Part shown: positions 14,260 to 51,516 of the stretch, piece by piece
Layout of the letters: each line of letters begins with the position of its first letter
How positions within the stretch are numbered: position 1 is the stretch's first letter
From: Siphonodentalium dalli
Taxonomy: Eukaryota; Mollusca; Scaphopoda; Gadilida; Siphonodentaliidae
Assembly: GCA_032622095.1 (NCBI GenBank)
Contig: CP136063.1
Location: forward strand, 42,012,106-42,076,105
Direction: 5' to 3'
DNA length: 64,000 nt
The notes under the pieces: model-generated
What the model was told of the DNA's origin: nothing
What the model saw: only the letters and a program-made list of their open reading frames with translations
Database searches by the model: none
Translations under genes and position numbers: made by a program

Positions 14260-14267
14260 TTATACAA

Positions 14268-16489: not shown

Positions 16490-16796
16490 ATTACACAGGA
16501 ATAAAGAATCAAATGCAATTCTCCCGCTCCGACAAGAGAAGAAATCGATGAAAAGTTCCACCAGTCAATCAACGAGAATTATTATAAAAACGAAGCTATG
16601 GTAAATTGCCAAACTGAACCAACCCACATCAGCAAAGAGAACATGAAGGAAAATGTTTGATAAGTGAGGAATTAATTCGACGGACTAATAGGAGAGATCC
16701 TAAAAAATTTACGAACGAAATTATGCAAATTCTTTACTCCAACGAGTATATGGCGACGCATACCATCACTGGAAGTGACCAGTATGGAAAACCAGG
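16490..16796 (+). pseudogene. BEN-domain fragment, probably processed
   Basis: From 16658 the frame reads SEELIRRTNRRDPKKFTNEI then MQILYSNEYMATHTITGSDQ. It is closely similar to the BEN exons at 18151 and 50788. In those copies an AG acceptor directly precedes ATAAATGAGG. Here the upstream sequence is instead open in another frame (SPAPTREEIDEKFHQSINEN, ending KENMKENV) and runs straight into the BEN segment with a one-base frame slip. That is what an intronless retrocopy followed by a frameshift would give. Homology is lost after GKPG at about 16796, so the C-terminal part of the domain is missing. Confidence 0.65.
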
Positions 16797-17998: not shown

Positions 17999-18150
17999 GA
18001 TATGCCAACACCCATTGCAATTGACATTTATCTTTTTTTCCATGGCATCACTTTAGAATTGCATACCAACTTTCGTGTTAATTTCCTGTCAACTTAAATC
18101 CTTATTTTGTTATTGTTACATCTATTTATTTAATTTCATCCTGTTTCCAG

Positions 18151-18328
18151 ATAAATGAGGAATTGATTAGACGGGCAAATAGGAGAGACCCAAAAAAGTT
18201 CACAAATGAGATTATGCAGATTCTATATTCAAATGAATACATGTCAAAACATTCTATAACTGGAATTGACCAGTACGGGAAACTGGGAAAGGAAGCAATG
18301 GATGCCAATGAAATGGATATGATCAAAG
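18151..18328 (+). CDS. BEN-domain exon, copy A
   Basis: A 178-nt exon with acceptor TTTCATCCTGTTTCCAG (phase 0) and donor GTAAAT (phase 1). It encodes about 59 residues: INEELIRRANRRDPKKFTNE, then IMQILYSNEYMSKHSITG, then GKLGKEAMDANEMDMIKG. The helix ending in the F/I-M-x-I-L-x-S-N/E-E-Y pattern, followed by S-I-T-G and a final A-N/D-E-M-x-x-I-K, is the C-terminal part of a BEN domain. BEN domains bind DNA and mediate chromatin repression. No neighbouring exon of the same gene is visible in copy A, and the 33-bp satellite begins 408 bp after the donor. It could be a functional exon of a gene starting upstream of the window or an orphan. Confidence 0.7.
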
Positions 18329-18736
18329 GTAAATTCATACAAGTATTCATTATTTGACACCATTTTCCCGTCTTTATAGCATAAATTTATGTTGTAAGCA
18401 GCTTATTGAATAAATACTGAAATTAGACTGTCCACGAAACTGGGCACAATATTTTGTGGAGCGATCATTTTGTTGAGTACGACTTAGTGATATTACCCCA
18501 CATTTCATTAAATTTTCTACTAATGAAAAACAATATACTTTTCATCCAAATGTGTATTTATTGTTGGGATATTTTGTCTCAATTATTTTCTCCCCTAACA
18601 ATTCCTTATCTCTCCACCAGAGTTTCCGCTACTATATCTACTATAAGTAAAATCACACACTGTACACTCAGATTTAGTAAAATCACACACTGTACACTCA
18701 GATTTAGTGCTGTTTGGTATTTTGATTGATTGTTGG

Positions 18737-21700
18737 CACAGTATTATACAATGGTTACGTCCAACACTGCACAGTATTATACAATGGTTACGTCCAACGC
18801 TGCACAGTATTATACAATGGTTATGTCCAACACTGCACAGTATTATACAATGGTTACGTCCAACGCTGCACAGTATTATACAATGGTTACGTCCAACGCT
18901 GCACAGTATTATACAATGGTTACGTCCAACACTGCACAGTATTATACAATGGTTACGTCCAACGCTGCACAGTATTATACAATGGTTATGTCCAACACTG
19001 CACAGTATTATACAATGGTTACGTCCAACGCTGCACAGTATTATACAATGGTTACGTCCAACGCTGCACAGTATTATACAATGGTTACGTCCAACACTGC
19101 ACAGTATTATACAATGGTTACGTCCAACGCTGCACAGTATTATACAATGGTTACGTCCAACACTGCACAGTATTATACAATGGTTACGTCCAACACTGCA
19201 CAGTATTATACAATGGTTATGTCCAACGCTGCACAGTATTATACAATGGTTATGTCCAACACTGCACAGTATTATACAATGGTTACGTCCAACACTGCAC
19301 AGTATTATACAATGGTTACGTCCAACACTGCACAGTATTATACAATGGTTACGTCCAACACTGCACAGTATTATACAATGGTTACGTCCAACACTGCACA
19401 GTATTATACAATGGTTATGTCCAACGCTGCACAGTATTATACAATGGTTACGTCCAACACTGCACAGTATTATACAATGGTTACGTCCAATGCTGCACAG
19501 TATTATACAATGGTTATGTCCAACACTGCACAGTATTATACAATGGTTATGTCCAACGCTGCACAGTATTATACAATGGTTACGTCCAACACTGCACAGT
19601 ATTATACAATGGTTACGTCCAACACTGCACAGTATTATACAATGGTTACGTCCAACACTGCACAGTATTATACAATGGTTACGTCCAACACTGCACAGTA
19701 TTATACAATGGTTACGTCCAACACTGCACAGTATTATACAATGGTTATGTCCAACGCTGCACAGTATTATACAATGGTTATGTCCAACGCTGCACAGTAT
19801 TATACAATGGTTACGTCCAACACTGCACAGTATTATACAATGGTTACGTCCAACACTGCACAGTATTATACAATGGTTATGTCCAACGCTGCACAGTATT
19901 ATACAATGGTTACGTCCAACACTGCACAGTATTATACAATGGTTATGTCCAACGCTGCACAGTATTATACAATGGTTACGTCCAACACTGCACAGTATTA
20001 TACGATGGTTACGTCCCACACTGCACAGTATTATACAATGGTTATGTCCAACGCTGCACAGTATTATACAATGGTTACGTCCAACACTGCACAGTATTAT
20101 ACAATGGTTACGTCCAATGCTGCACAGTATTATACAATGGTTACGTCCAATGCTGCACAGTATTATACAATGGTTACGTCCAACGCTGCACAGTATTATA
20201 CAATGGTTACGTCCAACGCTGCACAGTATTATACAATGGTTACGTCAAACGCTGCACAGTATTATACAATGGTTACGTCCAACACTGCACAGTATTATAC
20301 AATGATTACGTCCAACACTGCACAGTATTATACAATGGTTACGTCAAACACTGCACAGTATTATACAATGATTACGTCCAACACTGCACAGTATTATACA
20401 ATGGTTACGTGAAACACTGCACAGTATTATACAATGGTTACGTCCAACACTGCACAGTATTATACAATGATTACGTCCAACACTGCACAGTATTATACAA
20501 TGGTTACGTGAAACACTGCACAGTATTATACAATGGTTACGTCCAACACTGCACAGTATTATACGATGGTTACGTCCCACACTGCACAGTATTATACAAT
20601 GGTTATGTCCAACGCTGCACAGTATTATACAATGGTTACGTCCAACACTGCACAGTATTATACAATGGTTACGTCCAACACTGCACAGTATTATACAATG
20701 GTTATGTCCAACGCTGCACAGTATTATACAATGGTTACGTCCAACACTGCACAGTATTATACAATGGTTACGTCCAATGCTGCACAGTATTATACAATGG
20801 TTACGTCCAATGCTGCACAGTATTATACAATGGTTACGTCCAACGCTGCACAGTATTATACAATGGTTACGTCCAACGCTGCACAGTATTATACAATGGT
20901 TACGTCAAACGCTGCACAGTATTATACAATGGTTACGTCCAACACTGCACAGTATTATACAATGATTACGTCCAACACTGCACAGTATTATACAATGGTT
21001 ACGTCAAACACTGCACAGTATTATACAATGATTACGTCCAACACTGCACAGTATTATACAATGGTTACGTGAAACACTGCACAGTATTATACAATGGTTA
21101 CGTCCAACGCTGCACAGTATTATACAATGGTTACGTCAAACGCTGCACAGTATTATACAATGGTTACGTCAAACACTGCACAGTATTATACAATGGTTAC
21201 GTCCAACACTGCACAGTATTATACAATGGTTACGTCAAACGCTGCACAGTATTATACAATGGTTACGTCAAACGCTGCACAGTATTATACAATGGTTACG
21301 TCCAACACTGCACAGTATTATACAATGGTTACGTCAAACGCTGCACAGTATTATACAATGGTTACGTCCAACACTGCACAGTATTATACAATGGTTACGT
21401 CAAACGCTGCACAGTATTATACAATGGTTACGTCCAACGCTGCACAGTATTATACAATGGTTACGTCCAACACTGCACAGTATTATACAATGGTTACGTC
21501 AAACGCTGCACAGTATTATACAATGGTTACGTCAAACGCTGCACAGTATTATACAATGGTTACGTCCAACACTGCACAGTATTATACAATGGTTACGTCA
21601 AACGCTGCACAGTATTATACAATGGTTACGTCAAACGCTGCACAGTATTATACAATGGTTACGTCCAACACTGCACAGTATTATACAATGGTTACGTCCA

Positions 21701-24700
21701 ACGCTGCACAGTATTATACAATGGTTACGTCAAACACTGCACAGTATTATACAATGGTTACGTCCAACGCTGCACAGTATTATACAATGGTTACGTCCAA
21801 CACTGCACAGTATTATACAATGGTTACGTCAAACGCTGCACAGTATTATACAATGGTTACGTCCAACGCTGCACAGTATTATACAATGGTTACATCCAAC
21901 ACTGCACAGTATTATACAATGGTTACGTCCAACGCTGCACAGTATTATACAATGGTTACATCCAACACTGCACAGTATTATACAATGGTTACGTCCAACG
22001 CTGCACAGTATTATACAATGGTTACGTCCAACACTGCACAGTATTATACAATGGTTACGTCCAACGCTGCACAGTATTATACAATGGTTACGTCCAACGC
22101 TGCACAGTATTATACAATGGTTACGTCCAACGCTGCACAGTATTATACAATGGTTACGTCCAACGCTGCACAGTATTATACAATGGTTACGTCCAACGCT
22201 GCATAATGGTTACGTCCAACACTGCACAGTATTATACAATGGTTACGTCCAACACTGCACAGTATTATACAATGGTTACGTCCAACGCTGCACAGTATTA
22301 TACAATGGTTACGTCCAACGCTGCACAGTATTATACAATGGTTACGTCCAACACTGCACAGTATTATACAATGGTTACGTCCAACACTGCACAGTATTAT
22401 ACAATGGTTATGTCCAACGCTGCACAGTATTATACAATGGTTATGTCCAACGCTGCACAGTATTATACAATGGTTACGTCCAACACTGCACAGTATTATA
22501 CAATGGTTACGTCCAACACTGCACAGTATTATACAATGGTTATGTCCAACGCTGCACAGTATTATACAATGGTTACGTCCAACACTGCACAGTATTATAC
22601 AATGGTTATGTCCAACGCTGCACAGTATTATACAATGGTTACGTCCAACACTGCACAGTATTATACAATGGTTACGTCCAACACTGCACAGTATTATACA
22701 ATGGTTACGTCCAACACTGCACAGTATTATACAATGGTTATGTCCAACGCTGCACAGTATTATACAATGGTTACGTCCAACACTGCACAGTATTATACAA
22801 TGGTTACGTCCAATGCTGCACAGTATTATACAATGGTTACGTCCAATGCTGCACAGTATTATACAATGGTTACGTCCAACGCTGCACAGTATTATACAAT
22901 GGTTACGTCCAACGCTGCACAGTATTATACAATGGTTACGTCAAACGCTGCACAGTATTATACAATGGTTACGTCCAACACTGCACAGTATTATACAATG
23001 ATTACGTCCAACACTGCACAGTATTATACAATGGTTACGTCAAACACTGCACAGTATTATACAATGATTACGTCCAACACTGCACAGTATTATACAATGG
23101 TTACGTGAAACACTGCACAGTATTATACAATGGTTACGTCCAACGCTGCACAGTATTATACAATGGTTACGTCAAACGCTGCACAGTATTATACAATGGT
23201 TACGTCAAACACTGCACAGTATTATACAATGGTTACGTCCAACACTGCACAGTATTATACAATGGTTACGTCAAACGCTGCACAGTATTATACAATGGTT
23301 ACGTCAAACGCTGCACAGTATTATACAATGGTTACGTCCAACACTGCACAGTATTATACAATGGTTACGTCAAACGCTGCACAGTATTATACAATGGTTA
23401 CGTCCAACACTGCACAGTATTATACAATGGTTACGTCAAACGCTGCACAGTATTATACAATGGTTACGTCCAACGCTGCACAGTATTATACAATGGTTAC
23501 GTCCAACACTGCACAGTATTATACAATGGTTACGTCAAACGCTGCACAGTATTATACAATGGTTACGTCAAACGCTGCACAGTATTATACAATGGTTACG
23601 TCCAACACTGCACAGTATTATACAATGGTTACGTCAAACGCTGCACAGTATTATACAATGGTTACGTCAAACGCTGCACAGTATTATACAATGGTTACGT
23701 CCAACACTGCACAGTATTATACAATGGTTACGTCCAACGCTGCACAGTATTATACAATGGTTACGTCAAACACTGCACAGTATTATACAATGGTTACGTC
23801 CAACGCTGCACAGTATTATACAATGGTTACGTCCAACACTGCACAGTATTATACAATGGTTACGTCAAACGCTGCACAGTATTATACAATGGTTACGTCC
23901 AACGCTGCACAGTATTATACAATGGTTACATCCAACACTGCACAGTATTATACAATGGTTACGTCCAACGCTGCACAGTATTATACAATGGTTACATCCA
24001 ACACTGCACAGTATTATACAATGGTTACGTCCAACGCTGCACAGTATTATACAATGGTTACGTCCAACACTGCACAGTATTATACAATGGTTACGTCCAA
24101 CGCTGCACAGTATTATACAATGGTTACGTCCAACGCTGCACAGTATTATACAATGGTTACGTCCAACGCTGCACAGTATTATACAATGGTTACGTCCAAC
24201 GCTGCACAGTATTATACAATGGTTACGTCCAACGCTGCATAATGGTTACGTCCAACACTGCACAGTATTATACAATGGTTACGTCCAACACTGCACAGTA
24301 TTATACAATGGTTACGTCCAACGCTGCACAGTATTATACAATGGTTACGTCCAACGCTGCACAGTATTATACAATGGTTACGTCCAACACTGCACAGTAT
24401 TATACAATGGTTACGTCCAACGCTGCACAGTATTATACAATGGTTACGTCCAACGCTGCACAGTATTATACAATGGTTACGTCCAACGCTGCACAGTATT
24501 ATACAATGGTTACGTCCAACGCTGCACAGTATTATACAATGGTTACGTCCAACGCTGCACAGTATTATACAATGGTTACGTCCAACGCTGCACAGTATTA
24601 TACAATGGTTACGTCCAACACTGCACAGTATTATACAATGGTTACGTCCAACGCTGCACAGTATTATACAATGGTTACGTCCAACGCTGCACAGTATTAT

Positions 24701-27236
24701 ACAATGGTTACGTCCAACGCTGCACAGTATTATACAATGGTTACGTCCAACGCTGCACAGTATTATACAATGGTTACGTCCAACGCTGCACAGTATTATA
24801 CAATGGTTACGTCCAACGCTGCACAGTATTATACAATGGTTACGTCCAACGCTGCACAGTATTATACAATGGTTACGTCCAACGCTGCACAGTATTATAC
24901 AATGGTTACGTCCAACGCTGCACAGTATTATACAATGGTTACGTCCAACACTGCACAGTATTATACAATGGTTACGTCCAACGCTGCACAGTATTATACG
25001 ATGGTTACGTCCAACGCTGCACAGTATTATACGATGGTTACGTCCAACGCTGCACAGTATTATACGATGGTTACGTCCAACGCTGCACAGTATTATACGA
25101 TGGTTACGTCCAACGCTGCACAGTATTATACGATGGTTACGTCCAACGCTGCACAGTATTATACGATGGTTACGTCCAACGCTGCACAGTATTATACAAT
25201 GGTTACGTCCAACGCTGCACAGTATTATACGATGGTTACGTCCAACGCTGCACAGTATTATACGATGGTTACGTCCAACACTGCACAGTATTATACGATG
25301 GTTACGTCCAACGCTGCACAGTATTATACAATGGTTACGTCCAACGCTGCACAGTATTATACGATGGTTACGTCCAACACTGCACAGTATTATACGATGG
25401 TTACGTCCAACGCTGCACAGTATTATACAATGGTTACGTCCAACACTGCACAGTATTATACAATGGTTACGTCCAACGCTGCCCAGTATTATACGATGGT
25501 TACGTCCAACGCTGCACAGTATTATACAATGGTTACGTCCAACGCTGCACAGTATTATACAATGGTTACGTCCAACACTGCACAGTATTATACAATGGTT
25601 ACGTCCAACACTGCACAGTATTATACAATGGTTACGTCCAACGCTGCACAGTATTATACAATGGTTACGTCCAACGCTGCACAGTATTATACGATGGTTA
25701 CGTCCAACACTGCACAGTATTATACAATGGTTACGTCCAACACTGCACAGTATTATACAATGGTTACGTCCAACACTGCACAGTATTATACGATGGTTAC
25801 GTCCAACACTGCACAGTATTATACAATGGTTACGTCCAACGCTGCACAGTATTATACAATGGATACGTCCAACGCTGCACAGTATTATACAATGGTTACG
25901 TCCAACACTGCACAGTATTATACAATGGTTACGTCCAACGCTGCACAGTATTATACAATGGTTACGTCCAACACTGCACAGTATTATACGATGGTTACGT
26001 CCAACACAGCACAGTATTATACAATGGTTACGTCCAACGCTGCACAGTATTATACAATGGTTACGTCCAACGCTGCACAGTATTATACAATGGTTACGTC
26101 CAACGCTGCACAGTATTATACAATGGTTACGTCCAACGCTGCACAGTATTATACAATGGTTACGTCCAACGCTGCACAGTATTATACAATGGTTACGTCC
26201 AACACTGCACAGTATTATACAATGGTTACGTCCAACACTGCACAGTATTATACAATGGTTACGTCCAACGCTGCACAGTATTATACAATGGTTACGTCCA
26301 ACGCTGCACAGTATTATACAATGGTTACGTCCAACACTGCACAGTATTATACAATGGTTACGTCCAACACTGCACAGTATTATACAATGGTTACGTCCAA
26401 CACTGCACAGTATTATACAATGGTTACGTCCAACACTGCACAGTATTATACAATGGTTACGTCCAACACTGCACAGTATTATACAATGGTTACGTCCAAC
26501 ACTGCACAGTATTATACAATGGTTACGTCCAACACTGCACAGTATTATACAATGGTTACGTCCAACACTGCACAGTATTATACAATGGTTACGTCCATCA
26601 CTGCACAGTATTATACAATGGTTACGTCCAACACTGCACAGTATTATACAATGGTTACGTCCAACGCTGCATAATGGTTACGTCCAACACTGCACAGTAT
26701 TATACAATGGTTACGTCCAACACTGCACAGTATTACACAATGGTTACATCCAACACTGCACAGTATTATACAATGGTTACGTCCAACACTGCACAGTATT
26801 ATACAATGGTTACGTCCAACACTGCACAGTATTATACAATGGTTACGTCCAACACTGCACAGTATTATACAATGGTTACGTCCAACGCTGCATAATGGTT
26901 ACGTCCAACACTGCACAGTATTATACAATGGTTACGTCCAACGCTGCACAGTATTATACAATGGTTACGTCCAACGCTGCATAATGGTTACGTCCAACAC
27001 TGCACAGTATTATACAATGGTTACGTCCAACACTGCACAGTATTATACAATGGTTACATCCAACACTGCACAGTATTATACAATGGTTACGTCCAACACT
27101 GCACAGTATTATACAATGGTTACGTCCAACACTGCACAGTATTATACAATGGTTACGTCCAACACTGCACAGTATTATACAATGGTTACGTCCAACACTG
27201 CACAGTATTATACAATGGTTACGTCCAACACTGCAC
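18737..27236 (+). repeat. 33-bp satellite array, ~258 units
   Basis: About 8.5 kb of a 33-bp unit containing CACAGTATTATACAATGG and TTACGTCCAACACTG. Array-internal truncated units of 23 bp (GCTGCATAATGG junction) occur at about 22202, 24238, 26671, 26892 and 26983. Units differ mostly at three positions that are CG, TG or CA in different units. Higher-order repeats are present with shifts of 561 bp (17 units) and 2036 bp (61 units plus one 23-bp unit). Because 33 is divisible by 3 and the unit lacks stops in several frames, open frames of up to 1460 codons exist (11-residue repeat such as AQYYTMVTSNT). They have no splice signals or non-repeat domain and are best treated as artefacts of the repeat. 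Confidence 0.98.
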
Positions 27237-27252
27237 TAAGGTTACTTCTTAA

Positions 27253-27644
27253 CCCTTTACCCAACAATCCGGCCAAAACCGGCCAAATAAAGCTTCAACA
27301 GCCTAAAATATCTTGGGTCTGTCTCAATAAAACCATACAAATATGGATATCATTGGAACCGGCTCATTGGCCACATTGTGATGGTTATAGTTATGCCCTG
27401 TGCCAATGCATTCTCTTATATATGCGAGTCGACCATAGGTCGCCTCGCATATATAAGAGAATACATTGGCCTAAAAAAAAAAACAAATTAACACTTTTTA
27501 CCATTTTTTCTTACATTCTTTAACAATTTTATAATTTGTAATGTGTTAAGCCAATGCATTCTCTTATATATGCGAGGCGACCTATGGTCGACTCGCATAT
27601 ATAAGAGAATGCATTGGCACAGGGCCCTTCTGTTGGGTAAAGGG
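27253..27644 (-). mobile_element. piggyBac-like MITE present only in copy A
   Basis: A 392-bp element with ends CCCTTTACCCAACA and TGTTGGGTAAAGGG, flanked by TTAA at 27249-27252 and 27645-27648. Copy B has the clean empty site CTTCTTAAATACCGC (TTAA at 51529-51532), so this inserted after the duplication or was precisely excised from B. It carries two ~70-bp foldbacks (GCCAATGCATTCTC...GAGAATGCATTGGC) around an AT-rich centre. The terminal parts match the 39249-39643 element in reverse orientation. Confidence 0.95.
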
Positions 27645-28771
27645 TTAAATACCGCAGCAGCGGGGTTACACCACATTGCAAGCGGCACGGTTCACGATAT
27701 TGTGATTTTTCAGACAATATACTGAGCAGACTTCAAGTTATTTATTGCTATGCATACACACTTTTATGTGTGCCTAAGTTGATGAACCCAAAGGGTGATA
27801 CGATTTTCATGACTGGTTAACCATTAACCATGGTGGTTGCTTGTATGTAGGGCTACATTGACAAGTGGATGTCTATTATTCAGCACAAATGATTCAATTT
27901 AAATCAGTCAGACTGGCATGCTCAGATATAAATGGAAAGCAAACTCAGAAATTTTCCCTAATTTATGAACATTTCCGTACTGCATATGTCTAAACCCAAG
28001 AGTGGTTCCTATTCTCGTCCTTGCAGCATAATATACCATCCATGCATATTAGGGGACATCGATAAATGTCCTTATTTATAGCAGGCTGTATAGCTATCAA
28101 ATAGTGCACAAAAGTTAATTTAAAGTTATCACACAATCTTTTTTCTGATCACTATATTGGCCCAAATGTATAATATAGTTGTAAGTATATATGTTTAATA
28201 AAGTAATTTATAGTACGATATGCATATATATGTAGTATTGTACCGACATATGTGTGCATAACTTGCCAAGAAGATATGGGTCGGGTTGTATCAAATAATC
28301 TGCACTATGTATAAGATCAAGTCGCTATTGCATCACTGTCTAATTAAGTAACCTGAGGGGGTTTTAATTTTGTGTGAACGGGGATCCTACGTAACACATA
28401 CTTCAATTCAAACTTGGATACGGATAATAGACATGCAGCCTGTAAGAAGTTGCCCATGCATTTTCCAGTTTGCACGGACACCGAAATTGACACATAACAC
28501 TCATCATGTGACTCATGCTCTAGTCAAATGTCATGATGTTAAATACAATGTCACTAATATGTCGTAAAGATCAAAGAAGCCTGTTTCGGCCGATGATGTG
28601 CCTCTCAACTGATACCATGGGCAGATATATTGAGATATAACAGGAATTTTCTATCTGTCTTGTTTGCTTATAAAATAAATTAATTAAGAAATTGGCCAAG
28701 CATTCGTTCATCACTTGAAATATGAACGTTCTCATAGGTTGAGATTCACGTGTAGTCGGTCAAGTCACTTA

Positions 28772-29796
28772 CTGTTATGCCCAAAGTAAATGGCCCATCT
28801 AACTGAAGTGGCACCCCAGTTTAACTGCGTTCCGTTTTAACCTAAATGCGGTTATAAGATGCGTTTAAAACGCAAGAGAACCGAATAAATTGTGCGGTTA
28901 AAACGGATACGTCACGGTTAAACCGGTATATGTCGCTCTTAATGGAATAGATACCATATGGCGTGTCATGTTTTAGTTGCCATGCCATGGCTCGTTAACA
29001 TGCCAGTGTACATTTCAATATCAATATTTTTTGTTGTGGATCTTCTATTTATTTTGGATAAATAGAACAAACATTCATATACCAATATTTTATGTTTTGG
29101 GTAAACAGAAGATTGTGATGTATGGTGTGAAAAAATAAAAGTGTTTTTGTGTGTTTTATTTATTTTTGGATTTCTTTTTATTATAATGTTGTAAACGCGT
29201 TTAAAATGGAACAACCACAAAACGGAAAAAACGCATTCAAACGGATCAAATGGCCACTGAATTTCAAACGGATTCGAGTGGGGGTTAGAGTCCCACACAT
29301 GCACACACATGCATTTAAACGGAACAAACGCACTCTTCAAACGTCGGGCATTATTCGGATATCGGAAACCGATATTTAAGTTTTCCGATCTTGCATTCGT
29401 TGCTATATAATCATAATTAACTATAAACGTGACACGCCAGCTAGATTCGCGAATTGCGTATGTATTATTACTAGTATTAAATTCAGCTTCAAACATAAGC
29501 ATGTATTTTTTCTCAAGCCAAACAATGGAAGTATACTAGAACATTACGTCAAAATTATACAGTTTTCACCAAGTCAGGATTAAAACATAAAATATATCGT
29601 GTTGAGTACCGATGGTGATAACAAAAACATACAATCAACTCCTGGTCGATTATGAAGTTACCACTTTGCTGTGATCGCTAAAACACAAAACGATAACATA
29701 CATGTACACTGGTAGATGCATGGGTAGTACCCCTCTCTTTCCCATTAAATATTCAAATACCGGAAGGTTAACGTTTACGTGCGGTGTAACCGCAGT
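28772..29796. mobile_element. TA-flanked Tc1/mariner-like element, right end lost (copy A)
   Basis: The left end starts CTGTTATGCCCAAAG after TA (28770-28771). The sequence follows the complete copy B element (52676-53849) until GTAACCGCAGT at about 29796, where it switches to unrelated sequence, so the right TIR is missing. The interior has scattered TTTAAACG and ACGG motifs in both orientations. The ~178-codon minus frame within it has no recognisable domain. Confidence 0.75.
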
Positions 29797-30878
29797 CAGG
29801 CCTCAGCCTAGGGGTTCAGAACAGGGAGACTTGAAGTCTCCCTCCAGGAAATTTAGGGAGACTTCAGGAAATTTAGGGAGACTTCAGGGAGAAGTGGAGA
29901 CTACGGAAAATTGACAATTTTCAACTATCGCTTTATTTTATAACATCAATAAAAACATAAAATAAGAAATAAAACTAAAAAAATTTGACTTTATCTGAAA
30001 TTAGCCTAATTAATTGTTATTTTACATTTAAATTTTTTGGAAATGTTTTGTGTAGCTATCATTTAAGCAAGACAATTATCAAGTTACAGTAGTAGTTAAT
30101 TTTTTAACTAAATGGAAGAAGTATTATTTCCTAGACTGCAGCCTGGAAGATACGTTTGTAGTATTGACTATTGTCAGATTGTACAGTCTGAATCATGATG
30201 CATGTAAATTGTAAGTTGTAACTTTGAAAGTTTAATTTGGTCACGGCTGTAATGTGGGTGTCCGCTAAAATAAACAATAAGGATTAACTAACAAAGGAGT
30301 TACAAAAGCTTTTAGTTTTATTGCTAAAGCTTTTATTAATTAATGGCCTCCCTTAATTAATGCCAACATCAGTGTCATCACTGGTATAATCCGATTAAAG
30401 CAATAAACTTTTAAAAAGACATTTATTTATTTACGGAAGCGGTCTCTTCCGTCAAAAAGTGTGACGCGGTCTCTTCAAAAAGTGCAACGCGTTACCGAAA
30501 CGAACTTCCGAAGCGCCTGGTACATACTCTAATAATGTCGTATTTGTTTTATATCTGAAATGCGGGACAGCGGTCTTTTAAGTTAATTAAAACATTATTT
30601 GTGACACTCACGATGGTCAATAACAACACAGATGCTAAGTTGCTAACATCTCATCGTGTTTTCAGCGTGTCAAAACATTCGTGATTAACATTCATTGCCG
30701 CAAAGGGAACAACGGCGACTGAATAACAACACAAAATAATACGTCATATTTTATTTTAAACACTTGGGACTTTGTCTCTGCATCGTCCGTTTCTTTTTGG
30801 GATGGCCGCCACAATTCATCTATATACGGACATGTCTGGGGAAAAAACTAGAAAAAAAAAATTAAGACAAAAAAAAAA
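29797..30878. other. copy A-specific replacement segment
   Basis: This 1.08-kb stretch has no counterpart in copy B, where 53697-54262 occupies the place. It opens with the AGGGAGACTTCAGG repeats also seen at 12838-13140, then AT-rich sequence, then CGGTCTCTTCCG and CGGTCTCTTCAAAAAGTG around 30440-30480. It ends at a poly-A-rich junction just before TTGAGTTGTCAAAAAA. The event removed the right end of the mariner-like element and the first half of the exon at 54066-54462. Confidence 0.75.
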
Positions 30879-30879
30879 A

Positions 30880-31082
30880 ATTTGAGTTGTCAAAAAATAA
30901 CACAAATCAACGACCTCGAATCAAAAATACATGAATGTCGGGACTATCTGATAAAAACTAAAAAAAAAGGTACCTTGACATAACAAAACGATCTATCAGT
31001 TCCCCAGTACCGGCAGTAGCACCCAGGGCCTGGAACCTACGTCATAAAACAAAGTTTTGGCGGCTGCTCGGTGCGACTCGAA
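30880..31082 (+). pseudogene. truncated exon, copy A of the 54066-54462 exon
   Basis: It keeps only the downstream half of the copy B exon, including the stretch encoding ITQINDLESKIHEC and the donor GTGAGT at 31083. It has 9 A where copy B has 10 A in the KTKKK region, which shifts the frame relative to SSPVPAVAPRAWNLR. The upstream cysteine-containing half is absent. Non-functional as it stands. Confidence 0.6.
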
Positions 31083-31378
31083 GTGAGTATTTATCGTTTT
31101 TGCAAACTATGTACATAAACCACTAAAAAAATCATTGCTTATGAGCTGTAAAACATTGTTTGCTAGCTCACAGTCATATATACCGAGATATATATGTAAC
31201 GGTTGTAAAGATTATCGCGTTCAGGTGGTTTCCGTCACCAATTTTCGAGTCATGTTTCAGAGTTTTGAAATGGTAACGCCTACATTGGCTTTTTAAATTG
31301 GAATTGTGACATAAATGGTAACGCCTACATATAATCAACATTTGATTCCAAAATCGGCAATTTGGCTGAATTCTTTCT

Positions 31379-31597
31379 TCACTTGCCGAATATCAAAATT
31401 AGTTTTAGGACTAGTGAGTAGTGTATGCCTTCACAGTTAATGGAACTTATGGAAGCGTAAAAGTATAATTCTTCCCTTGCTAAGATCCCCCGAATATCGC
31501 CAAGGCGAATCGGTATGTACATCGGCTCAAAAGTAGACTGCTTCACTTGTGGCAGGCTAATTAATACGTTTTTCACAGAATTACTATCACAAGACAT
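31379..31597 (-). CDS. small minus-strand ORF, unrecognised, copy A
   Basis: A 72-codon frame with SLPQVKQSTFEPMYIPIRLG, then DIRGILAREELYFYASISSI. A diverged relative of the same coding segment lies on the plus strand at about 34405-34900 (HRGIL / AREELYYCYGSIKF), interrupted there by a transposon. Two related sequences that both preserve RGILAREELY suggest this was once protein-coding. I do not recognise the family. Copy B has the same frame at 54801-54983, ended early by a substitution. It could be one exon or a pseudogene. Confidence 0.4.
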   Translation of the reverse strand: MSCDSNSVKNVLISLPQVKQSTFEPMYIPIRLGDIRGILAREELYFYASISSINCEGIHYSLVLKLILIFGK

Positions 31598-32699
31598 AAA
31601 TGAATAAAATAATAAATAATTATATGACCTTTAGTTTATATATCAATATTATTATAGGGAATAAGAAAAAATGTCATTCTGGTTGATGCATCATATATAA
31701 TTATAGGCTAAAATAAACCAACGTTTGATACGGGGGGGTTGTGAGAAAATTTACACATACAGGGCCCAAAAAAACATTTACAGCCCTTTTTGTGCAAAAA
31801 ATTTATTTTTTTACGCCTGATTTTTTTGTACCCACCCCATAAAATAAGAAAAAATTCATTTTAAATCTATTCAAGACCAAATCAAACAGAATCAAAGGTA
31901 AGTTTTCAATTGGTCCGTTTATGGCAGATTCCAAGTGTTCAAACAATTGAAAAACTATCAACGGTTATGTTTTTTTCGACATTGAAAAATACATTTTGAA
32001 ATAAAAAGTGTTTTATTCTACAGTATGCACAGATATTGTGAGGTAATATTTATAGTGCGAATAAGCCAACATTGTGTTTAATTTTTACATAAATATTCCA
32101 GTTACTAATTAATGACTTCTTCACGGTTGTTCCCAAAAAGGTGCCACCAACCATCATATCAGAACACCTTATAGCCATACCGGCAATGACAGTTATATAG
32201 TATATAAGTATCACTCGTTGGAGCCAAATAAACAGGCTGGCATGTTTATTTTTTAATTTGAGGTATTTTGTTAGCCAGCACTCTGCAGCACTAGTATTAT
32301 TTGGTCATTAGACATGCCAGAGTGAAAATGCCAGCACTATCAGGCACTATTCAATATTAATTTGAGGTGAAATGCAAACCAGCACTCCTATTCAGTCATC
32401 ACTTTTATTTGGCACCAGAGAGTTCTTAAGGTATGTTTTTGGAAGATCTCCCCTGTATTACTTATATATTATACCTACCCTGTTCCTAAGTGTCTGTAAA
32501 GGCCATAACCTGCCTTAGAACACAATTATTAATGAATATATTTGAAAACAACTTAAAACAAGGGCAAAAATGTGAATAGAAAAATATTTGCACAAACTCA
32601 TTTTTTCGGGCCTCTTCGGACCCACCGACCCCGGCCCTGTATGATAACACTTTTGTGCGGCGACCCCCCCCCCACCCCCAGCGTTTGATAAATGAATAA

Positions 32700-32925
32700 A
32701 TATAGGTTATCACCACCATGTGTGTTTCTGAGATCCGTATTCAAGTCGAGCTGCCTTCTCTGGGCAGTCTATCGACGAGTCCGTATCCGTATTCAAGTCG
32801 AGCTGCCTTCTCTGGGCAGTCTATCGACGAGTCCGTAGGACGAGTCGATAGACAGCCCAGAGAAGGCAGCGAGACTTGAATACGGATCTCGGAAACACAC
32901 AGGGTGATGATAACCAATTTATCTT
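32700..32925. repeat. long foldback hairpin with duplicated arm, copy A
   Basis: The arms read GTGTGTTTCTGAGATCCGTA on the left and its near-perfect complement on the right, with GCTGCCTTCTCTGGGC in the stem. Pairing extends outward through GGTTATCA...TGATAACC. Compared with copy B (56089-56250), the left arm segment from ATCCGTATTCAAGTC to CGACGAGT is present twice, so the hairpin here has two left arms for one right arm. A foldback MITE is the simplest reading; no target duplication was resolved. Confidence 0.85.
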
Positions 32926-34443
32926 ACAATTCGTCCCATAAAAATGCAATAAAACTCAATTTAAAACAGAAACTATTTTATTACGCGCAACACACAACGT
33001 ACACAATATTCTCAGCACGCGACGTTGTGATAAGTCAAATTCTGAGAAATTCACGTCACTATTCAAATTCACTTTGGCTGGAATCCGATTCAATGAAGAG
33101 GCGACGATATTTTCGTTTCATATGTTCGACATAATTGTCACTTTTAACAGGATAATTGTATTATTTTATGGTGCAATCTCCTTGGATAGTGATAGTGTTG
33201 GCGAGAGGCATTGCCGGAGATGACTGTCCATTCAGAGTTTTGGTGAATTTTGAACTTTCCGACACTTCGACAATCGAGTTCTGACTCGCACTAAAATAAC
33301 CCATTAAACTTCATTTAGAGGAAATGCACTAAATAACGGACTTTTCGTAAGTATTGTGTTTTATATCCTTAACATAAGATAAAATTAATTTGATTTTCCA
33401 TTCTGTATTTTATCGAATAAAAAATGCGTTCAGTAGCTTTTGATCAAGAAGACCGTACTGAATTACGGGGAATTCCCTACTTCGCTAAAATAGAAATTGT
33501 CAAAATAGTCCGTATTCGTGCGCGCTGTTAACAATGTGTAAACTTCGTTACTTTTTCGATTTCCAAACATTTTTGGGTGGTTATTTTGAGCTTTTTGGGC
33601 CCTGTCTCCACATTTTGTCAACTTTATTGAACTAATTATTGATTATTTTACATTCGTAGCACACGAGTATATTATTTTACGACTTTTAGTTGGTTATTTA
33701 GACGTTTTGTTTTAAAAACAAGCCAGTTGTCGAAACGCACGTGCACCAGCTGTTGCCATCGAAGATATCCTTGTTGCCATCCAGGATACAAGATCGGAAA
33801 CCGCCTAGGCGTTTTCGCGTGTATTTGATGAAATATAGCTATATTGTAAGATAAATCGCAATATCGCCACTGCTTCAGTTGAACCAGGAAGGAGCTTTAA
33901 GTTGTATTCTAAAATTTGTGTTTCAAATTCAAATGTTTCTGAAATTGATAAAAGAAAAAACTTTTAATTAAAAGAAATGAATTAAAATCACAAGCTCGCA
34001 AAGTCGCACTCTCATGTACAGTAGTTACACTACATCATCAAACTGAAACACTTCACACAGTTTTTATGAACCCTACTCTAAAATAGTTTTTGAATGTCGT
34101 GGTGTTAGTCAGTAAATTCTAACTGATTTCCCCCAGAGACTAACACAACGTTATTCTAACGCCGTGTTCTTTTCTGTGCTGTTCAGGATATCCCTCCCTT
34201 TTCACATTTATACATGTTAAAATAAATATTTAAAACCCAGTTGTATTGGTAAGATCATCATATATATAAGGTTAAAATATGCAGGTAAAAGCTGTGTTGC
34301 GTTGAATTTAGAGTTATTTCTCCTGTATCTGGGATCTTAGCCAACCTGGTCCCGTTCGACTGTTTCCGGGGGATGTTAGAGGGAATCTTCGTGGTATCTT
34401 AATTAGCACCGATTGACGGTCGGGAATCATCGGGGGATCTTAG

Positions 34444-34832
34444 GAGGCCCCCACCCCCCTTTCGTACGCCGTATTCCATGCCCTGTTATGAGGTACGCCG
34501 TATTCCGGCCCCTCTGTTATATAGGAGGTATTCGGTATTCCAAAAATACCGGTATTCGTACGCCGACCTTCGACACCTTCCAAAAAATGATCATAATAAT
34601 AATAATATAAATGCATTTTTTGTCACAATAAATTCACGGTTTGACATACAGATCGTCGATCATCGTCATTTTAGATCATTTTAGACGTGGACACTGTGGG
34701 ATGACAGGCGTTCGTACGGCAATAGAAAATTTATCTGGAAAATTCCATATGGCTGTTAACTGGTATTCCGTATTCCTGCACCCTCTGTGTTAAGTGGTAT
34801 TCCGTATTCCAGGGGGGGTGGGTGGAGGCCTC
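34444..34832. mobile_element. short MITE inserted in a coding-derived segment, copy A
   Basis: Ends GAGGCCCCCACCC and GGGTGGAGGCCTC, with TCTTAG at 34438-34443 and 34833-34838. The interior is rich in GTATTCCG. Removing it and one TCTTAG gives CGGGGGATCTTAGCGAGGGAAG, which matches the reverse complement of 31466-31488, an uninterrupted copy. The same insertion is in copy B (57781-58167), so it predates the duplication. A 6-bp duplication does not by itself fix the superfamily. Confidence 0.78.
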
Positions 34833-37194
34833 TCTTAGCGAGGGAAGAATTATATTATTGCTATGGAAGCATTAAATTCACATGTGTTTAATTATTATTG
34901 AAATTTGTTTTGCCGGCAACCATTCATATACACGCTCGTTGATATTTGATAAGTAAATAGAACAACTTAAAACTAATTAAGGGGTACTGTACGCCATTCT
35001 CAATAAACTCACGATAATAACAACAATCTAATATCTATAATTTAATATTATATAAACAAATAAGTAATTTGAGTCGAAGGTGTACATTGTATTTTGTAAA
35101 CGATCAGGTTAATAGGTTATCCTAAAATCAAAGTTAAAGCTAATCAATCCTATTCGATGGTCCCCCATATCATCAGATTCCAACAACACATATTTTTTGA
35201 AATGCCCGCTTCAGTTATCAGAATCTGTTAAATAACCAAAACTAATGCTAGCCACAGTCAAATATAGTATCAAATTGACCTAAACCTGTTATTTATCAAC
35301 ATTTTGTCGGTTTGTCAAATATCTGACAAAAAAGCTACTTGATTTTCGAGTTAACCATCTTCATCCGCAAATTTGGTCCGAGGCAGTCTTCTCGTCGACT
35401 TTTACTGGGCCACTAAATATTCCAGGTGGTGAAAAATAATAGATTTTAAAAATCGATATCTGACCATTCTGAGCTTTGATTGGTGGGTTCCTCGACTCGA
35501 ATAAAATATTATTTACCCCCGAAGCCAAATAAATAGTAATTGATGAGTGCATAATCGGATTGAGTGCTTTAATAATTTGATACATATTTAATTTATGACT
35601 GGAGCCATAAAATAAGTTACGAATTTCCGTGTACAAGACGTAATCAAATTATTTCACGGATAGTGGATTGGGCAACGCGTGGCACCAATGATCGTGTACA
35701 CAATTATATTGATACGGGACGTAAACTCAAGCCACTTACTGAGTGGTGACTATACCATAACTTAAATTTATGAGTATATGTGAGTGGTATACATATAATT
35801 TAACATTTATTTGATACATTTGTTTGAAAACTACACAAATTATTCTACAACAACAATTTGGATTTTCGCATTCCGGCTAATCTGCCATCCATAACATTAC
35901 TTCGTACTCGAAATACTTTCAAGTAATGAAAATCTGGTTACCATATTCTACGACTCAGAGACTATAGAAACAGGCCAATAGTATGTGAGCGTTAACGCGA
36001 TGTGGGCGTTACCATTAATAGACAAATTCATAAAAATTATTTGTGTCTTAAGAAATTTACAAACAAACCACGGGAAAGTTAATTTTTTGTTATTGATTCA
36101 AATTTTAGCATTTATAATATCCCAAAACTCAATGTATACTGGTTTAAAATGAGTTTAGGGCGCGGAGAACATGAAATGTTGGCGTTAACACCTGCACGAA
36201 AATAGGAAATCGGACGCGATTTTGAATTGCGGACGCGAAATTCTCATTATAAGCAATTCTTTCCGATTTTCGGTTTCGGTATTTGTCTAGATTTGCAGGT
36301 GGCATAGCTCCTTTGCTTATAATACTACATCGAACTCGATTGTATTTATTTAAAAAACGATGTTGAAGTAGCGAGTCAAACTTTATTTACAGTTATTTTG
36401 ATGTAGGGTTACCCTTCCGGTGACGTAGGTTCCAGGCCCTGGCACCACCACAGGAAAAACGAACGAAGGGCAACACAATTCTACCACCAACGCCACCGAA
36501 ACCCATCCGACCTTACACAGCCATATTATTTATAGCTCCAAAGAAGGTACCAGTTGTACCTAAATTACAGTTGCCTGCAATCCACATACCGGTGATTTTA
36601 AACTTTCGACCGCTCGTCAACAATCTACTTTATTTGTCAATTTGTGATTTTCTCTTCCGGTATAACATGACGTCATGGATACTATTTTAATAACCTTTCG
36701 CCACACCTTCGGAATTTCCACACCAAGAGCATGTGACATGTTACTATGATGTTTCTGGTGGTTTAATTGGTTACTATTTGATTGGAATGATCGATTAAAT
36801 TGAGAACACGTTTATTGGAAACTTGGACGCTGACATATTGGTTTACATAATAATCCGGAATACCTGGTTCGCATGAAACGGAACATACTAAGAACATTAC
36901 AGTTACTAGTTTTTTATTGGGTTACACATTTCTTAGAGTTAAGTTTTGATTGGCGGTAATTACAAGGAATCTCAGGTTTGGAAAATGAAAAGGTCGTCGG
37001 ACCCACTATTTTTTATATGTGGGTATGTAGTTTAATCCAGACTGGCTTTAATCTACTTCGATATTTTGGAACTACAATGTATGTATTCGTCAATATTTTA
37101 CACATTTACCTTCATTTATTCACAAACAAATGTCTTGATGAATATACTAGTAAATAATTAAATTATTTACAACATCCTTTTGAATGGAAAACTA

Positions 37195-37369
37195 CAGTAA
37201 TGCTCTAATTAATCGTCTCTTTAACCACAGCAGAATTATGGGCGACTTTTCAGGATTTAGTTGGAAATATGGCTTGTTGCCATTCATCGGAAAGCTCTCG
37301 GTGAGAGCTTTCCGATAAGTCACACATAATTCGCTGTCGTTAAGAAGTCGATTGCTTAGAGCATTACTG
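37195..37369. mobile_element. TA-flanked palindromic MITE (solo copy)
   Basis: 175 bp, starts CAGTAATGCTCTAA and ends TTAGAGCATTACTG, with TA on both sides (37193-37194, 37370-37371). The interior contains GGATTTAGTTGGAAATATGG and GCCATTCATCGGAAAGC, matching the split copy at 39126-39673. TA target and CAGT ends fit the Tc1/mariner group. Confidence 0.85.
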
Positions 37370-37511
37370 TACATCACGTCAGAGTGGTCACTATGAGTTG
37401 GAAAATAACACAAAATCATTCAGACAAGAACATAAATGAAACAAAATGAAAAGGTAGCTAAGATGTATGTCTGTAATTATGGCATTTTCACTTTTAACTT
37501 TCCATTTTCAG

Positions 37512-37755
37512 CCAAGGTTCATTTCCTGTGTGTCGAATTCTACCCAGAGGGCGACACACGCTGGAGTAGTATAATCAGCAGCCAATGGATGTTTACAAAT
37601 AAGTCCAAACAATACACCTGGTGGCCGATAGACGGCAATAAGGCCAAACAATACACCTGGTGGCCAACAGACAGCAATGTGCAAACCCTTAAAAGGCATC
37701 AGAAACCAAGCTCAAACGGGAAAAGCACGCTGCGAAAGAAGGTGTTGTATGAAAC
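37512..37755 (+). CDS. N-terminal-module exon of the BEN-domain gene
   Basis: Acceptor CACTTTTAACTTTCCATTTTCAG, entry phase 1. The frame reads KVHFLCVEFYPEGDTRWSSI, a tandemly duplicated KQYTWWP motif (NKSKQYTWWPIDGNKAKQYTWWP in outline), a basic stretch, and ends near KKVLYET. The pattern 'V-E-F ... W ... WWP ... RVLYET' resembles, from memory, the N-terminal module of many invertebrate BEN and DUF4806-type proteins, normally followed by an exon starting near D-L-E-S as found at 38391. The usual GT donor after the codon for ET is not evident (GGAAAGGG follows), so this exon may have lost its splice site. An upstream frame to ATG at 37436 is open but is probably intronic. Confidence 0.5.
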
Positions 37756-38390
37756 TGGAAAGGGTTGTGCACATAAATACACGTAACTTTAGTTCTGGTA
37801 TATCATAAATACACGTAACTTTAGTTCTGGTATATCAAAAACAGTATGATTGCAGCATGTTTCATATTGATTTTGCTGAATTTTTATCACACATTTAAAA
37901 AAAAAAAGCTGTACATAACATTATTTTTCTATAAAGGCACAATAAACGTGTTTGTGACTGATGCACCTGAGTGTACCATGTTCATGTAATTCGGTATTAT
38001 GTATATTTGATGAATTTCGCACTGGCCAATCTCTCGATTCAAAATCTCTCCAGGCTAGGTTCAGTGGATATGGGAGTGGATTTATTACTCAAAAACCTGT
38101 ACACAACATTAATTTATATAAAATAATACAAACACATCTACAAGTGTGTAGCATCACAACATTTGTTCTGACCTTCAATTTTATTATGTTCACCCCAAAA
38201 TGCATGAAACTTTTAACAGTATCGTTAACTGCTGGTTTATATATTGGGTCACATAAAAACTGTTTATATAACTGTATATCAATCATAGCTGATACAAATA
38301 TTTGGTACCTGGTGACTATGTTTTGACAAAGTCTTTCAGAGGACTGCAGGAAGGCATATAAACAGTGAAAACGTTCAGAAAATAATTCAG

Positions 38391-38651
38391 ATCTGGAATC
38401 TGAAGTAGAAGATAACAGAAGACAACGAATGTACGTTATTATCGATCAGCCTCCCATCATGCATGAAGATAACAGAATACAACGAATGTACGTTATTATC
38501 GATCAGCCTCCCATCATGCATGAAGATAACAGAAGACAACGAAGGTACGTTATTATCGAACAGCCTCCCATCATGCATGACGATAACAGAAGACAACGAA
38601 TGTACGTTATTATTGATCAGCCTCCCATCTTGCATGAGCACTCAAGTGGGG
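38391..38651 (+). CDS. BEN-gene exon 2 with four 19-residue repeats
   Basis: It follows AAAATAATTCAG and enters in phase 1 as (G)DLESEVEDNRRQRMYVIID. The 57-bp unit EDNRRQRMYVIIDQPPIMH is repeated four times (38408-38635), all in frame. After HEHSSGEKCYK the donor is unclear. A diverged relative without the expansion lies at 39719-39858, and the sequences downstream of both also match, so this exon and its flank were once duplicated. Coding status rests on the in-frame 57-bp periodicity and the fit with the preceding module. Confidence 0.5.
38408..38635 (+). repeat. 57-bp coding-phase tandem repeat
   Basis: Four units starting at 38408, 38465, 38522 and 38579, each beginning with GAAGATAACAGAA or a one-base variant (CGATAACAGAA in the fourth). 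Substitutions are few, and every unit keeps the same reading frame. Confidence 0.95.
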
Positions 38652-38670
38652 AAAAATGTTACAAAGATAC

Positions 38671-38890
38671 GATTATCTCATACGATATAGTATAAATTAT
38701 TTACGTGTCTGGTAGATTATCTCATACGATATAGTATAAATTATTTACGTGTCTGGTAGATTATCTCATACGATATAGTATAAATTATTTACATGTCTGG
38801 TAGATTATCTCATACGATATAGTATAAATTATTTACGTGTCTGGTAGATTATCTCATACGATATAGTATAAATTATTTACGAATCTGGTA
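38671..38890 (+). repeat. 44-bp tandem repeat, 5 units
   Basis: Units start at 38671, 38715, 38759, 38803 and 38847 with GATTATCTCATACGATATAG. They are almost identical. The repeat lies just after the 57-bp coding repeat, so two unrelated minisatellites adjoin within 500 bp. Confidence 0.95.
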
Positions 38891-39125
38891 GATTCAATTT
38901 TGCTCTCGTTACTTAGAAATAGAGCTTGTGAGTTACTTCCCTTAATAATTGAAAACAAAAGTATAGGTCAACTTTATTTCGTCTCAATGGGTGTAAAATT
39001 TAGTTGTAAATAGTCAGTTTCTTGGATAATCATGATTCACTCATATGAAAAATCACAGCTCAATTCTACTGGATCGGTTCATCATGATTCACTCACAATT
39101 CTACTGGATGATGAATCTACTAGTA

Positions 39126-39673
39126 CAGTAATGCCCTAAGTAATCGACCTCTTAATCAAAGCAGAATTATGGTTAACTTTTAAGGATTTAGTCGGAAATA
39201 TGGCTTGTTGCCATTCATCGGAAAGAGACATAATTCTGCTTTGGTTAACCCTTTACCCAACAGAACGGCCCTGTGCCAATGCATTCTCTTATATATGCGA
39301 GTCGACCATAGGTCGCCTCGCATATATAAGAGAATGCATTGGCTTAACACATTAAAAATTATAAAATTGTTAAAGAATGTAAGAAAAATTGGTAAAAAGT
39401 GTTAAAAAAATATATTTTTTAGGCCAATGCATTCTCTTATATATGCGAGGCGACCTATGGTCGACTCGCATATATAAGAGAATGCATTGGCACAGGGCAT
39501 AACTACTGTAACTATCACAATGTGGTCAAGGAGCCGGTTCCAATGATATCCATATTTGTATGGTTCTATTGAGACAGACCGAAGATATTTTAGGCTGTTG
39601 AAGCTTTATTTGGCCGGTTTTGGTCGGTTTGTTGGGTAAAGGGTTAAGAGGTCGATTACTTCGGGCATTACTG
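39126..39673. mobile_element. TA-flanked MITE split by a piggyBac-like MITE
   Basis: Outer ends CAGTAATGCCCTAAG and CTTCGGGCATTACTG with TA at 39124-39125 and 39674-39675. The outer element is the same family as 37195-37369. It is interrupted at its internal TTAA by the element at 39249-39643; removing that restores TTTGGTTAAGAGGTCGATTA. Confidence 0.92.
39249..39643 (+). mobile_element. piggyBac-like MITE nested in a MITE
   Basis: 395 bp, CCCTTTACCCAACAGAACGG to GGTTTGTTGGGTAAAGGG, TTAA at 39245-39248 and 39644-39647. It contains two ~70-bp foldbacks (ATGCATTCTCTTATATATGC and partner) separated by ~105 bp of AT-rich sequence, then the GGAGCCGGTTCCAATGATA segment shared with the copies at 14023, 14371 and 27253. 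Confidence 0.95.
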
Positions 39674-39718
39674 TATCTCATCATGAAATTAAAAACACTA
39701 AGTTATGTTTTCTTACAG

Positions 39719-39858
39719 AACCTTAGAAGATGTCAGTACTCAGATTAACGCCGATCCATTTCTCTCACCTGTTTGTCCGGACAGAACACAACAAAGTTAT
39801 GTTATCATCGATTGCCTCCCGTCGTGCATGAGAAATCAAGTGGGAAAAAATGTTACAG
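39719..39858 (+). pseudogene. diverged duplicate of BEN-gene exon 2
   Basis: Acceptor ATGTTTTCTTACAG and donor ACAG/GTTTTG bracket an open frame TLEDVSTQINADPFLSPVCP...SYVIIDCLPSCM. Compared with exon 2, ATCGATCAGCCTCCC has become ATCGATTGCCTCCC, a one-base loss. After it the frame matching exon 2 (PPVVHEKSSGKKCY) continues in another phase. It is therefore either a frameshifted pseudo-exon or has acquired a new C-terminal frame. Confidence 0.5.
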
Positions 39859-40099
39859 GTTTTGATTATTGCTGTTCAAATTTTCGTATGATGTAGCAAT
39901 AATTATTTACAAGTCCGCTAATTCAATTTTGATCCATGATGTTGTTAATTAGAAATAGATGTGAGGTTTTCAGTTACATTGCGTTATGTTAGGAAACCAA
40001 ATAATTGAACCAACAACAACGTCTACAGACCAACTAAATCTTTAATATCTGTCAATGGATGTAAAATTTTGTTGTAAATGGTCAGTTTCTCAGTTAAAT

Positions 40100-50787: not shown

Positions 50788-50965
50788 ATAAATGAGGAAT
50801 TAATTAGACGGGCAAATAGGAGAGACCCAAAAAAGTTTACTAACGAGATTATGCAAATTCTATACTCAAATGAATATATGGCAAAACATACCATAACTGG
50901 AAGCGACCAGTACGGGAAACTGGGAAAAGAAGCAATGGATCCCAATGAAATGAATATGATCAAAG
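50788..50965 (+). CDS. BEN-domain exon, copy B
   Basis: Same length, splice sites and phases as 18151-18328. Encodes INEELIRRANRRDPKKFTNE, IMQILYSNEYMAKHTITG and GKLGKEAMDPNEMNMIKG. It differs from copy A at 15 of 178 bases (5 residues), against about 4 in 178 in the adjacent downstream intron. At most of those sites it agrees with the copy at 16658. It lies 409 bp after the end of the 37.5-50.4 kb BEN gene, on the same strand. It could be an extra exon of that gene in an alternative transcript, but no in-frame join from 50219-50376 exists. Confidence 0.68.
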
Positions 50966-51353
50966 GTAAATTCATACAAGTATTCATTATTTGACACCAT
51001 TTTCCCGTCTTTATAGCATACATTTATGTTTTAAGCAGCCTATTGAATAAATACTGAAATTAGACTGTCCACGAAACTGGGCACAATATTTTGTGGAGCG
51101 ATCATTTTGTTGAGTACGACTTGGTGATATTACCCCACATTTCATACAAATTTCCACAAATGAAAAAACGTGTACTGTATATTTTGTCTCAATTATTTTC
51201 TCCCCTAACAATTCCTTATCTCTCCACCAGAGTATCCGCTATTGGTTAGGGTTAAATTTCCAATATGCAACGGAAAGTGAATATCTACTATAAGTAAAAT
51301 CACACACTGTACACTCAGATTTAGTGTTGTTTGGTATTTTGATTGATTGTTGG

Positions 51354-51516
51354 CACAGTATTATACAATGGTTACGTCCAACACTGCACAGTATTATACA
51401 ATGGTTACGTCCAACACTGCACAGTATTATACAATGGTTACGTCCAACACTGCACAGTATTATACAATGGTTACGTCCAACACTGCACAGTATTATACAA
51501 TGGTCCAACACTGCAC
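51354..51516 (+). repeat. 33-bp satellite, short copy B array
   Basis: Four to five units, all of the ACGTCCAACACTG type, ending through a shortened unit (CAATGGTCCAACACTGCAC) in CTAAGGTTACTTCTTAAAT. It occupies the same place as the 8.5-kb array of copy A. Confidence 0.97.

Follow-up and report, generated by a model that had tools for sequence, protein, structure and literature searches.

How has one tandem repeat come to number about 259 units on one side of a local duplication and about five on the other, and how long has the difference had to arise? The question is posed by a 33-bp repeat in the scaphopod Siphonodentalium dalli. It lies in a window of 64,000 nucleotides (assembly GCA_032622095.1, contig CP136063.1, positions 42,012,106 to 42,076,105 of the forward strand), whose coordinates are used throughout. 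The copy of the duplication that carries the long array is referred to as copy A and its partner as copy B.

Two arrays of unequal size

The arrays and the features directly associated with them are:

18736..27236, + strand: long 33-bp array of copy A, 259 units (TRF and monomer parse)
20615..24421, + strand: two perfect internal copies within the long array, 1,771 bp each (unit and nucleotide comparison)
27249..27648, + strand: high-copy element of ~400 bp, in copy A alone, with TTAA on both sides and ends CCCTTTACCC and GGGTAAAGGG (read directly)
51353..51512, + strand: short array of copy B, four full units and a shortened fifth (TRF to 51504; unit starts and end read)

In this one assembly, TRF assigns the copy A array a period of 33, 259.1 copies and 95% matches, and the copy B array (51353-51504) 4.6 copies and 100% matches. 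Parsing into monomers gives 259 units in copy A, 254 of them 33 bp and five 23 bp long, against four full units and one shortened unit in copy B, in agreement with the numbers of ~258 and ~5 proposed in a first-pass annotation of this DNA. The 33-bp units of copy A fall into 18 distinct types arranged in irregular order, the two commonest of which (86 and 76 units) form the bulk of the array; the mean pairwise difference among these units is 1.24 per unit, or 3.8% per site, and the GC content of the array is ~40%. Copy B holds the ACGTCCAACACT type throughout, as had been noted, with a deletion of 5 bp in its last unit, which ends at 51512. The final five units of array A all belong to this same type, an arrangement that allows copy B to be read either as seed or as remnant; the short array may thus be near its starting size or the product of a later collapse.

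Array A carries a record of its own rearrangement. A run of 53 consecutive units reappears identically at an offset of 62 units, the two internal copies being 1,771 bp long, 2,036 bp apart (62 units) and without a single difference. This perfect pair is a recent block duplication of ~62 units, and array A has therefore truly grown. At the divergence of 0.59% found in the core of the duplication (see below), ~10 differences would be expected in 1,771 bp; since none is seen, the block duplication is younger than the core divergence.

The junctions of the two arrays correspond. Genome-wide, the left junction string has exactly two occurrences, one where each array starts, and the right-hand string is present at both array ends, so that both flank strings described earlier are confirmed. 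The right flank of copy A does not match as a whole, however, because it is split 16 bp past the array by the ~400-bp element, whereas the corresponding site in copy B is uninterrupted. The element has a TTAA target duplication, terminal inverted repeats and many copies, and may be piggyBac-like. Out of 1,164 candidate genome copies 40 were scored, and all 40 were near full-length matches; the best other copy among the scored candidates is 99% identical to the element beside the array. High-copy elements of ~400 bp that end in TTAA and contain an internal inverted repeat are found at 27249-27648, 39245-39652 and 14032-14704. The right flank has a weak resemblance to the repeat, with 74 of 2,000 shuffles scoring as well against the 23-bp unit and 236 of 2,000 against the 33-bp unit; the left flank has no resemblance to these units (1,908 and 1,560 of 2,000 shuffles score as well).

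Smaller differences of the same kind are found elsewhere in the duplication. Copies A and B contain, respectively, two and one units of a 30-bp array, two and one of a 52-bp array, and two and three of a 32-bp array, while a 39-bp array has two units in both. As three of these four short arrays differ between the copies, change in tandem repeats appears to be common here, the 33-bp array being the extreme case. The region has further repeats. A unit of ~164 bp forms fields at 1-2765, 11745-12838 and L001:1235-3127, the last of which sits in a part of copy B with no equivalent in copy A. In a compact minisatellite at 8402-8961, a 13-bp unit gives way to a 30-bp unit that has 17 copies at 97%.

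A minisatellite confined to one duplicated locus

A unit pattern spanning four unit types has 197 forward and no reverse exact matches in the 2.23-Gb assembly, and all 197 fall within the two arrays, 193 in A and four in B (counted over the window and the next 20 kb). A three-unit DNA query likewise returned at least 120 matches, each of those listed lying inside one of the two arrays. The pattern count is an exact one, from which strongly diverged units elsewhere would escape, and the DNA search may under-count; with that qualification, the array is specific to the duplicated locus.

The repeat is thus a locus-specific minisatellite, without genome-wide satellite spread. Minisatellites have been defined as head-to-tail tandem arrays of a unit of ~9-100 bp (PMC2599865), and a head-to-tail array of 259 copies of 33 bp falls within that range. 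Classical satellites form large arrays at many or heterochromatic sites, whereas this repeat was found at just two sites in 2.23 Gb; the label 'satellite' used in the first-pass annotation is therefore better replaced by single-locus minisatellite. Its interspersed variants (the 18 types) and internal block rearrangement are traits of hypervariable minisatellites. In occupying the same position in both duplicates, with matching junctions and unequal unit number, it also corresponds to the paralog minisatellites of PMC2812944.

A probable intron of a BEN-domain gene

Upstream of each array lies an exon-like stretch:

18151..18328, + strand: exon-like stretch of copy A, partial BEN domain, AG acceptor and GT donor (Pfam BEN; splice sites by eye)
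50788..50965, + strand: matching exon-like stretch of copy B (Pfam BEN, 29.3 bits, above the cut-off of 23.2)

The match in copy A (22.8 bits, E=0.00011) is just below the Pfam cut-off of 23.2, and in a genome-wide BEN scan the A and B stretches scored 22.3 and 28.5 bits among 89 matches listed (E up to 10). The frame is open in both copies. Array A begins ~400 bp downstream of the splice-donor-like site and, judged from this sequence context, probably lies in an intron of a BEN-domain gene; no following exon was found. The list of open frames took in those of 70 codons or more, and the Pfam scan covered ten stretches.

The two exon-like stretches differ at 15 of 180 positions, with a dS of 0.40 and a dN of 0.035 over 59 codons, and their silent change exceeds the change in the introns. 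Of the 11 informative sites, 10 group B with an upstream exon copy at 16659-16792; a relative on contig C4, which aligns with the left flank, disagrees at five of those 10. It seems probable from these patterns that exchange between exon copies has occurred. The left flank has probably been affected by further exchanges, and its divergence is thus not a clean clock. Each copy of the duplication has two BEN-like matches ~1.5 kb apart, at 16705-16794 and 18151-18328 in A and at 49318-49455 and 50788-50965 in B. The upstream matches of A and B gave no mutual DNA alignment at the settings used, and the upstream copy in A is closest to the downstream exon of B.

An unevenly diverged duplication

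Once the array is masked, copy A (17999 to ~39914) and copy B (50636 to ~67952, past the window end) align in six collinear blocks, interrupted by sequence found in one copy or the other. In copy A the principal parts are:

17999..18735, + strand: left flank in copy A, with 50636-51352 as its homologue, and left edge of the A/B homology (blastn, MAFFT)
27645..28623, + strand: right flank of the array, where divergence drops from 5.4% to 1.8% (alignment)
28624..36354, + strand: core of the duplication, 0.51-0.59% divergent where aligned (alignment; 29797-30881, which has no aligned partner, uncounted)
36393..39914, + strand: right part of the duplication, three blocks (compared with copy B 63566-67952, partly outside the window)

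Divergence was counted over ungapped aligned columns of the six homologous blocks, leaving out the regions between blocks and 18701-18735. One printed self-comparison omits matches shorter than 200 bp and near-diagonal ones in the first 13 kb; a second omits those below 180 bits, or below 93% identity in the first 13 kb; and some omit copy A matches that start in the first 13 kb.

The central ~8 kb differ between copies by 0.5-0.6%, while the sequence beside the array and the far right end differ by ~3-8%. Left of the array, the non-coding divergence is 13/342 (3.8%; 5/151 and 8/191 in two parts), and the bin at 18521-18700 has 27 differences in 150 columns, partly an alignment effect of indels and of a 30-bp repeat that has two copies in A and one in B. 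Successive bins to the right of the array give 26/479 (5.4%), 9/499 (1.8%) and 6/1,173 (0.5%), the first of which falls to 19/471 (4.0%) when an apparently misaligned patch of eight bases beside a 21-bp indel is removed. Divergence is 32/5,419 across 30882-36354 and rises again to 42/2,055 across 36393-39914, where the blocks give, towards the end, 20/1,503 (1.3%), 9/321 (2.8%) and 13/231 (5.6%). By odds ratio, divergence beside the array exceeds that of the core 7- to 10-fold (Fisher p 1e-14 for the near-right bin against the core at all sites, 1.9e-9 without the misaligned patch, and 7e-7 for the left non-coding sequence). Divergence reaches the same level at the far right end, which lies over 12 kb away from the array.

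The simplest reading of these alignments is that the duplication is older than its core suggests, that the core was homogenised later, probably by gene conversion, and that the array lies in the older part. Gene conversion is suggested because the middle looks younger than both ends. If the core was indeed homogenised later, the array would have had longer to change. These data alter two claims of the first-pass annotation. The description of the copies as otherwise nearly identical holds for the core, but not for the sequence on either side of the array. The proposed ~50-fold change in size since the duplication stands as regards the size gap, to which at least one 62-unit block in A has contributed; the recent timescale that it implied is not supported, because the near-identity belongs to the core and the array sits in a part that is several percent divergent.

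At the left limit of the A/B homology, copy A sequence shared with C4 (17949-18098) extends past that limit, and the left junction of copy B therefore looks derived. Copy B also has extra sequence at 60028-61866, in which a stretch of ~920 bp containing 150-bp repeats is doubled at 98% identity.

Age of the array

Growth from five units was simulated with 200 runs per setting, a rough exercise that incorporates our own assumption on block size. Under a clock set by the core, exponential growth yielded 6.5 types and a pairwise difference of 0.18, against the observed 18 and 1.24, whereas early growth yielded 24.8 types (18-32), a number compatible with 18, and a pairwise difference of 0.19. Under a clock set by the edges, exponential growth gave 44.4 types (5-95% range, 36-54) and a pairwise difference of 1.50, and early growth 145.8 types and 1.64. 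The observed pairwise difference was reached in none of the 200 core-clock runs, whether growth was exponential or early, but in 74% (exponential) or all (early) of the 200 edge-clock runs. No single simulated history matches both the number of types and the pairwise difference. Within the limits of this model, the pairwise value calls for the longer clock and the small number of types suggests later copying of blocks. The unit diversity of array A, at 3.8% per site, likewise fits the edge divergence better than that of the core. The array is thus read as sufficiently old to have diverged to the extent of the edges, and as having been reshaped afterwards.

Competing explanations

The account that we regard as probable is that a single-locus minisatellite, likely intronic, is present in both copies of an old duplication of ~20 kb and that array A grew by ordinary tandem-repeat turnover. 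Growth would have proceeded through unequal sister exchange, strand slippage or repair synthesis and would in part have involved large blocks, with at least one recent block duplication of ~62 units enlarging the array; homogenisation of the core by gene conversion would have followed the older duplication. Alternatively, the array may have been long and varied before the duplication, copy B then losing almost the whole of it through a single deletion or a small number of them and keeping the end units. This is possible, although appreciably less likely. Collapse would suit a copy B made solely of the type found in the last five units of A, the deletion present in its last unit, and a unit diversity in A above that obtained from five-unit growth under the core clock; however, a block duplication that postdates the core divergence gave A ~62 further units, so that A has also grown. 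The C4 relative has no unit that scores above shuffled sequence, its best match (18/33) being at the level of one shuffle (five rotations, one strand, 2.3 kb), in a searched stretch that reached ~1.7 kb past its homology; as that homology stops ~100 bp left of the array, C4 cannot polarise the size change. An artefact of assembly, in which one array has been over-expanded or the other collapsed, is unlikely. Human minisatellites can be understated in reference sequences, the perfect 1.77-kb internal repeat is of a structure prone to mis-assembly, and the array sizes are those of a single assembly. Yet an array of 8.5 kb is within current long-read length, the window contains no N, the unit types of array A follow an irregular order, and A and B have different flanks on a single contig, which means that the arrays are not two haplotypes of one place.

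The gradient of divergence to the right of the array (5.4, 1.8 and 0.5%) could also be expected if an expanded array raised the point-mutation rate of its flanks through repair or replication, and when the upstream exon copy is taken as outgroup, 10 of the 11 changes in the exon are assigned to A. Such an effect is very unlikely, and is rejected as the main cause: the far right end of the duplication is equally divergent, and with C4 as outgroup the 29 A/B differences at left-flank columns where all three sequences have a letter are balanced between the branches (11 assigned to A, 16 to B and two unresolved; binomial p 0.44). The 10/11 result is read instead as exchange between exon copies, which is not proven. 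Least credible of all is that the array is translated as a protein of 11-residue repeats or has a selected regulatory role. The unit does correspond to 11 codons, its consensus is open in four of six frames, half of the 14 single-site variants are synonymous in one open consensus frame, and the longest forward open frames within the array reach 1,275, 1,880 and 1,456 codons. Nevertheless, each of the three forward frames is interrupted by stops within the array (7, 6 and 3), the first and second frames each receiving a stop from a different unit type; the five 23-bp units shift the reading frame; and the single array frame that was scanned has no Pfam match above cut-off. On these grounds a coding array is rejected. 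One unit type carries two changes that jointly create a stop. Folding of either single strand is no better than that of most shuffles (z 0.93 and -0.32; 170/200 and 72/200 shuffles fold at least as well), and a hairpin-prone unit is thus unsupported.

Relation to known minisatellites

No account of this locus was found in the literature searched. The closest precedent is provided by the minisatellites of human segmental-duplication paralogs described in PMC2812944, in which unit number varies between recent paralogs, the average unit is 30 bp and change is attributed mainly to expansion. As at the present locus, unit number there is unequal between duplicates; the human cases described average ~4 units and 160 bp and lie in exons or at exon-intron borders, whereas the array described here has 259 units, extends over 8.5 kb and is apparently intronic. 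The human loci MSY1, MS32 and CEB1 are, in the account of PMC2599865, variant-unit arrays altered in size by duplication, deletion and conversion-like events, and the variety of unit types in array A resembles theirs. MS32 and CEB1 are described as GC-rich, unlike this array at ~40% GC, and human minisatellite mutation has been measured in sperm and blood (PMC2599865), whereas here a single assembly is available.

Among the disease-associated human minisatellites listed in PMC10502081 are a 30-mer of 100-3000 copies, an ABCA7 25-mer of more than 200 copies and a WDR7 69-mer. The first two resemble this array in unit length and copy number, but the variation described concerns one locus among people rather than a pair of paralogous loci within a single genome. 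STRs surround segmental duplications of the sea urchin Sp185/333 family and have been suggested to be involved in duplication (PMC5103432). That family likewise combines tandem repeats with local duplication of a gene region in an invertebrate; its repeats are, in that description, short STRs, and nothing at the present locus shows that the 33-bp array caused the duplication. The gap in size between the two arrays is ordinary minisatellite behaviour, large but of a known kind.

Significance

The main gain is the corrected view of how old the flanks are. The case also warns that a repeat may be wrongly dated if the identity of the best-matching part of a duplication is applied to it although it is sited elsewhere in that duplication. 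Paired paralogous sites that hold one minisatellite at very unequal sizes, with readable unit types, are also well suited to the counting of gains and losses. A further and rather doubtful proposal is that the size mismatch itself shielded its surroundings, conversion having kept the core at ~0.5% while halting before the ~8.3 kb of unpaired array. If this were true, a growing minisatellite would let neighbouring paralogous sequence, here an exon, diverge, and growth of the repeat would be linked to the escape of the duplicated exons from gene conversion.
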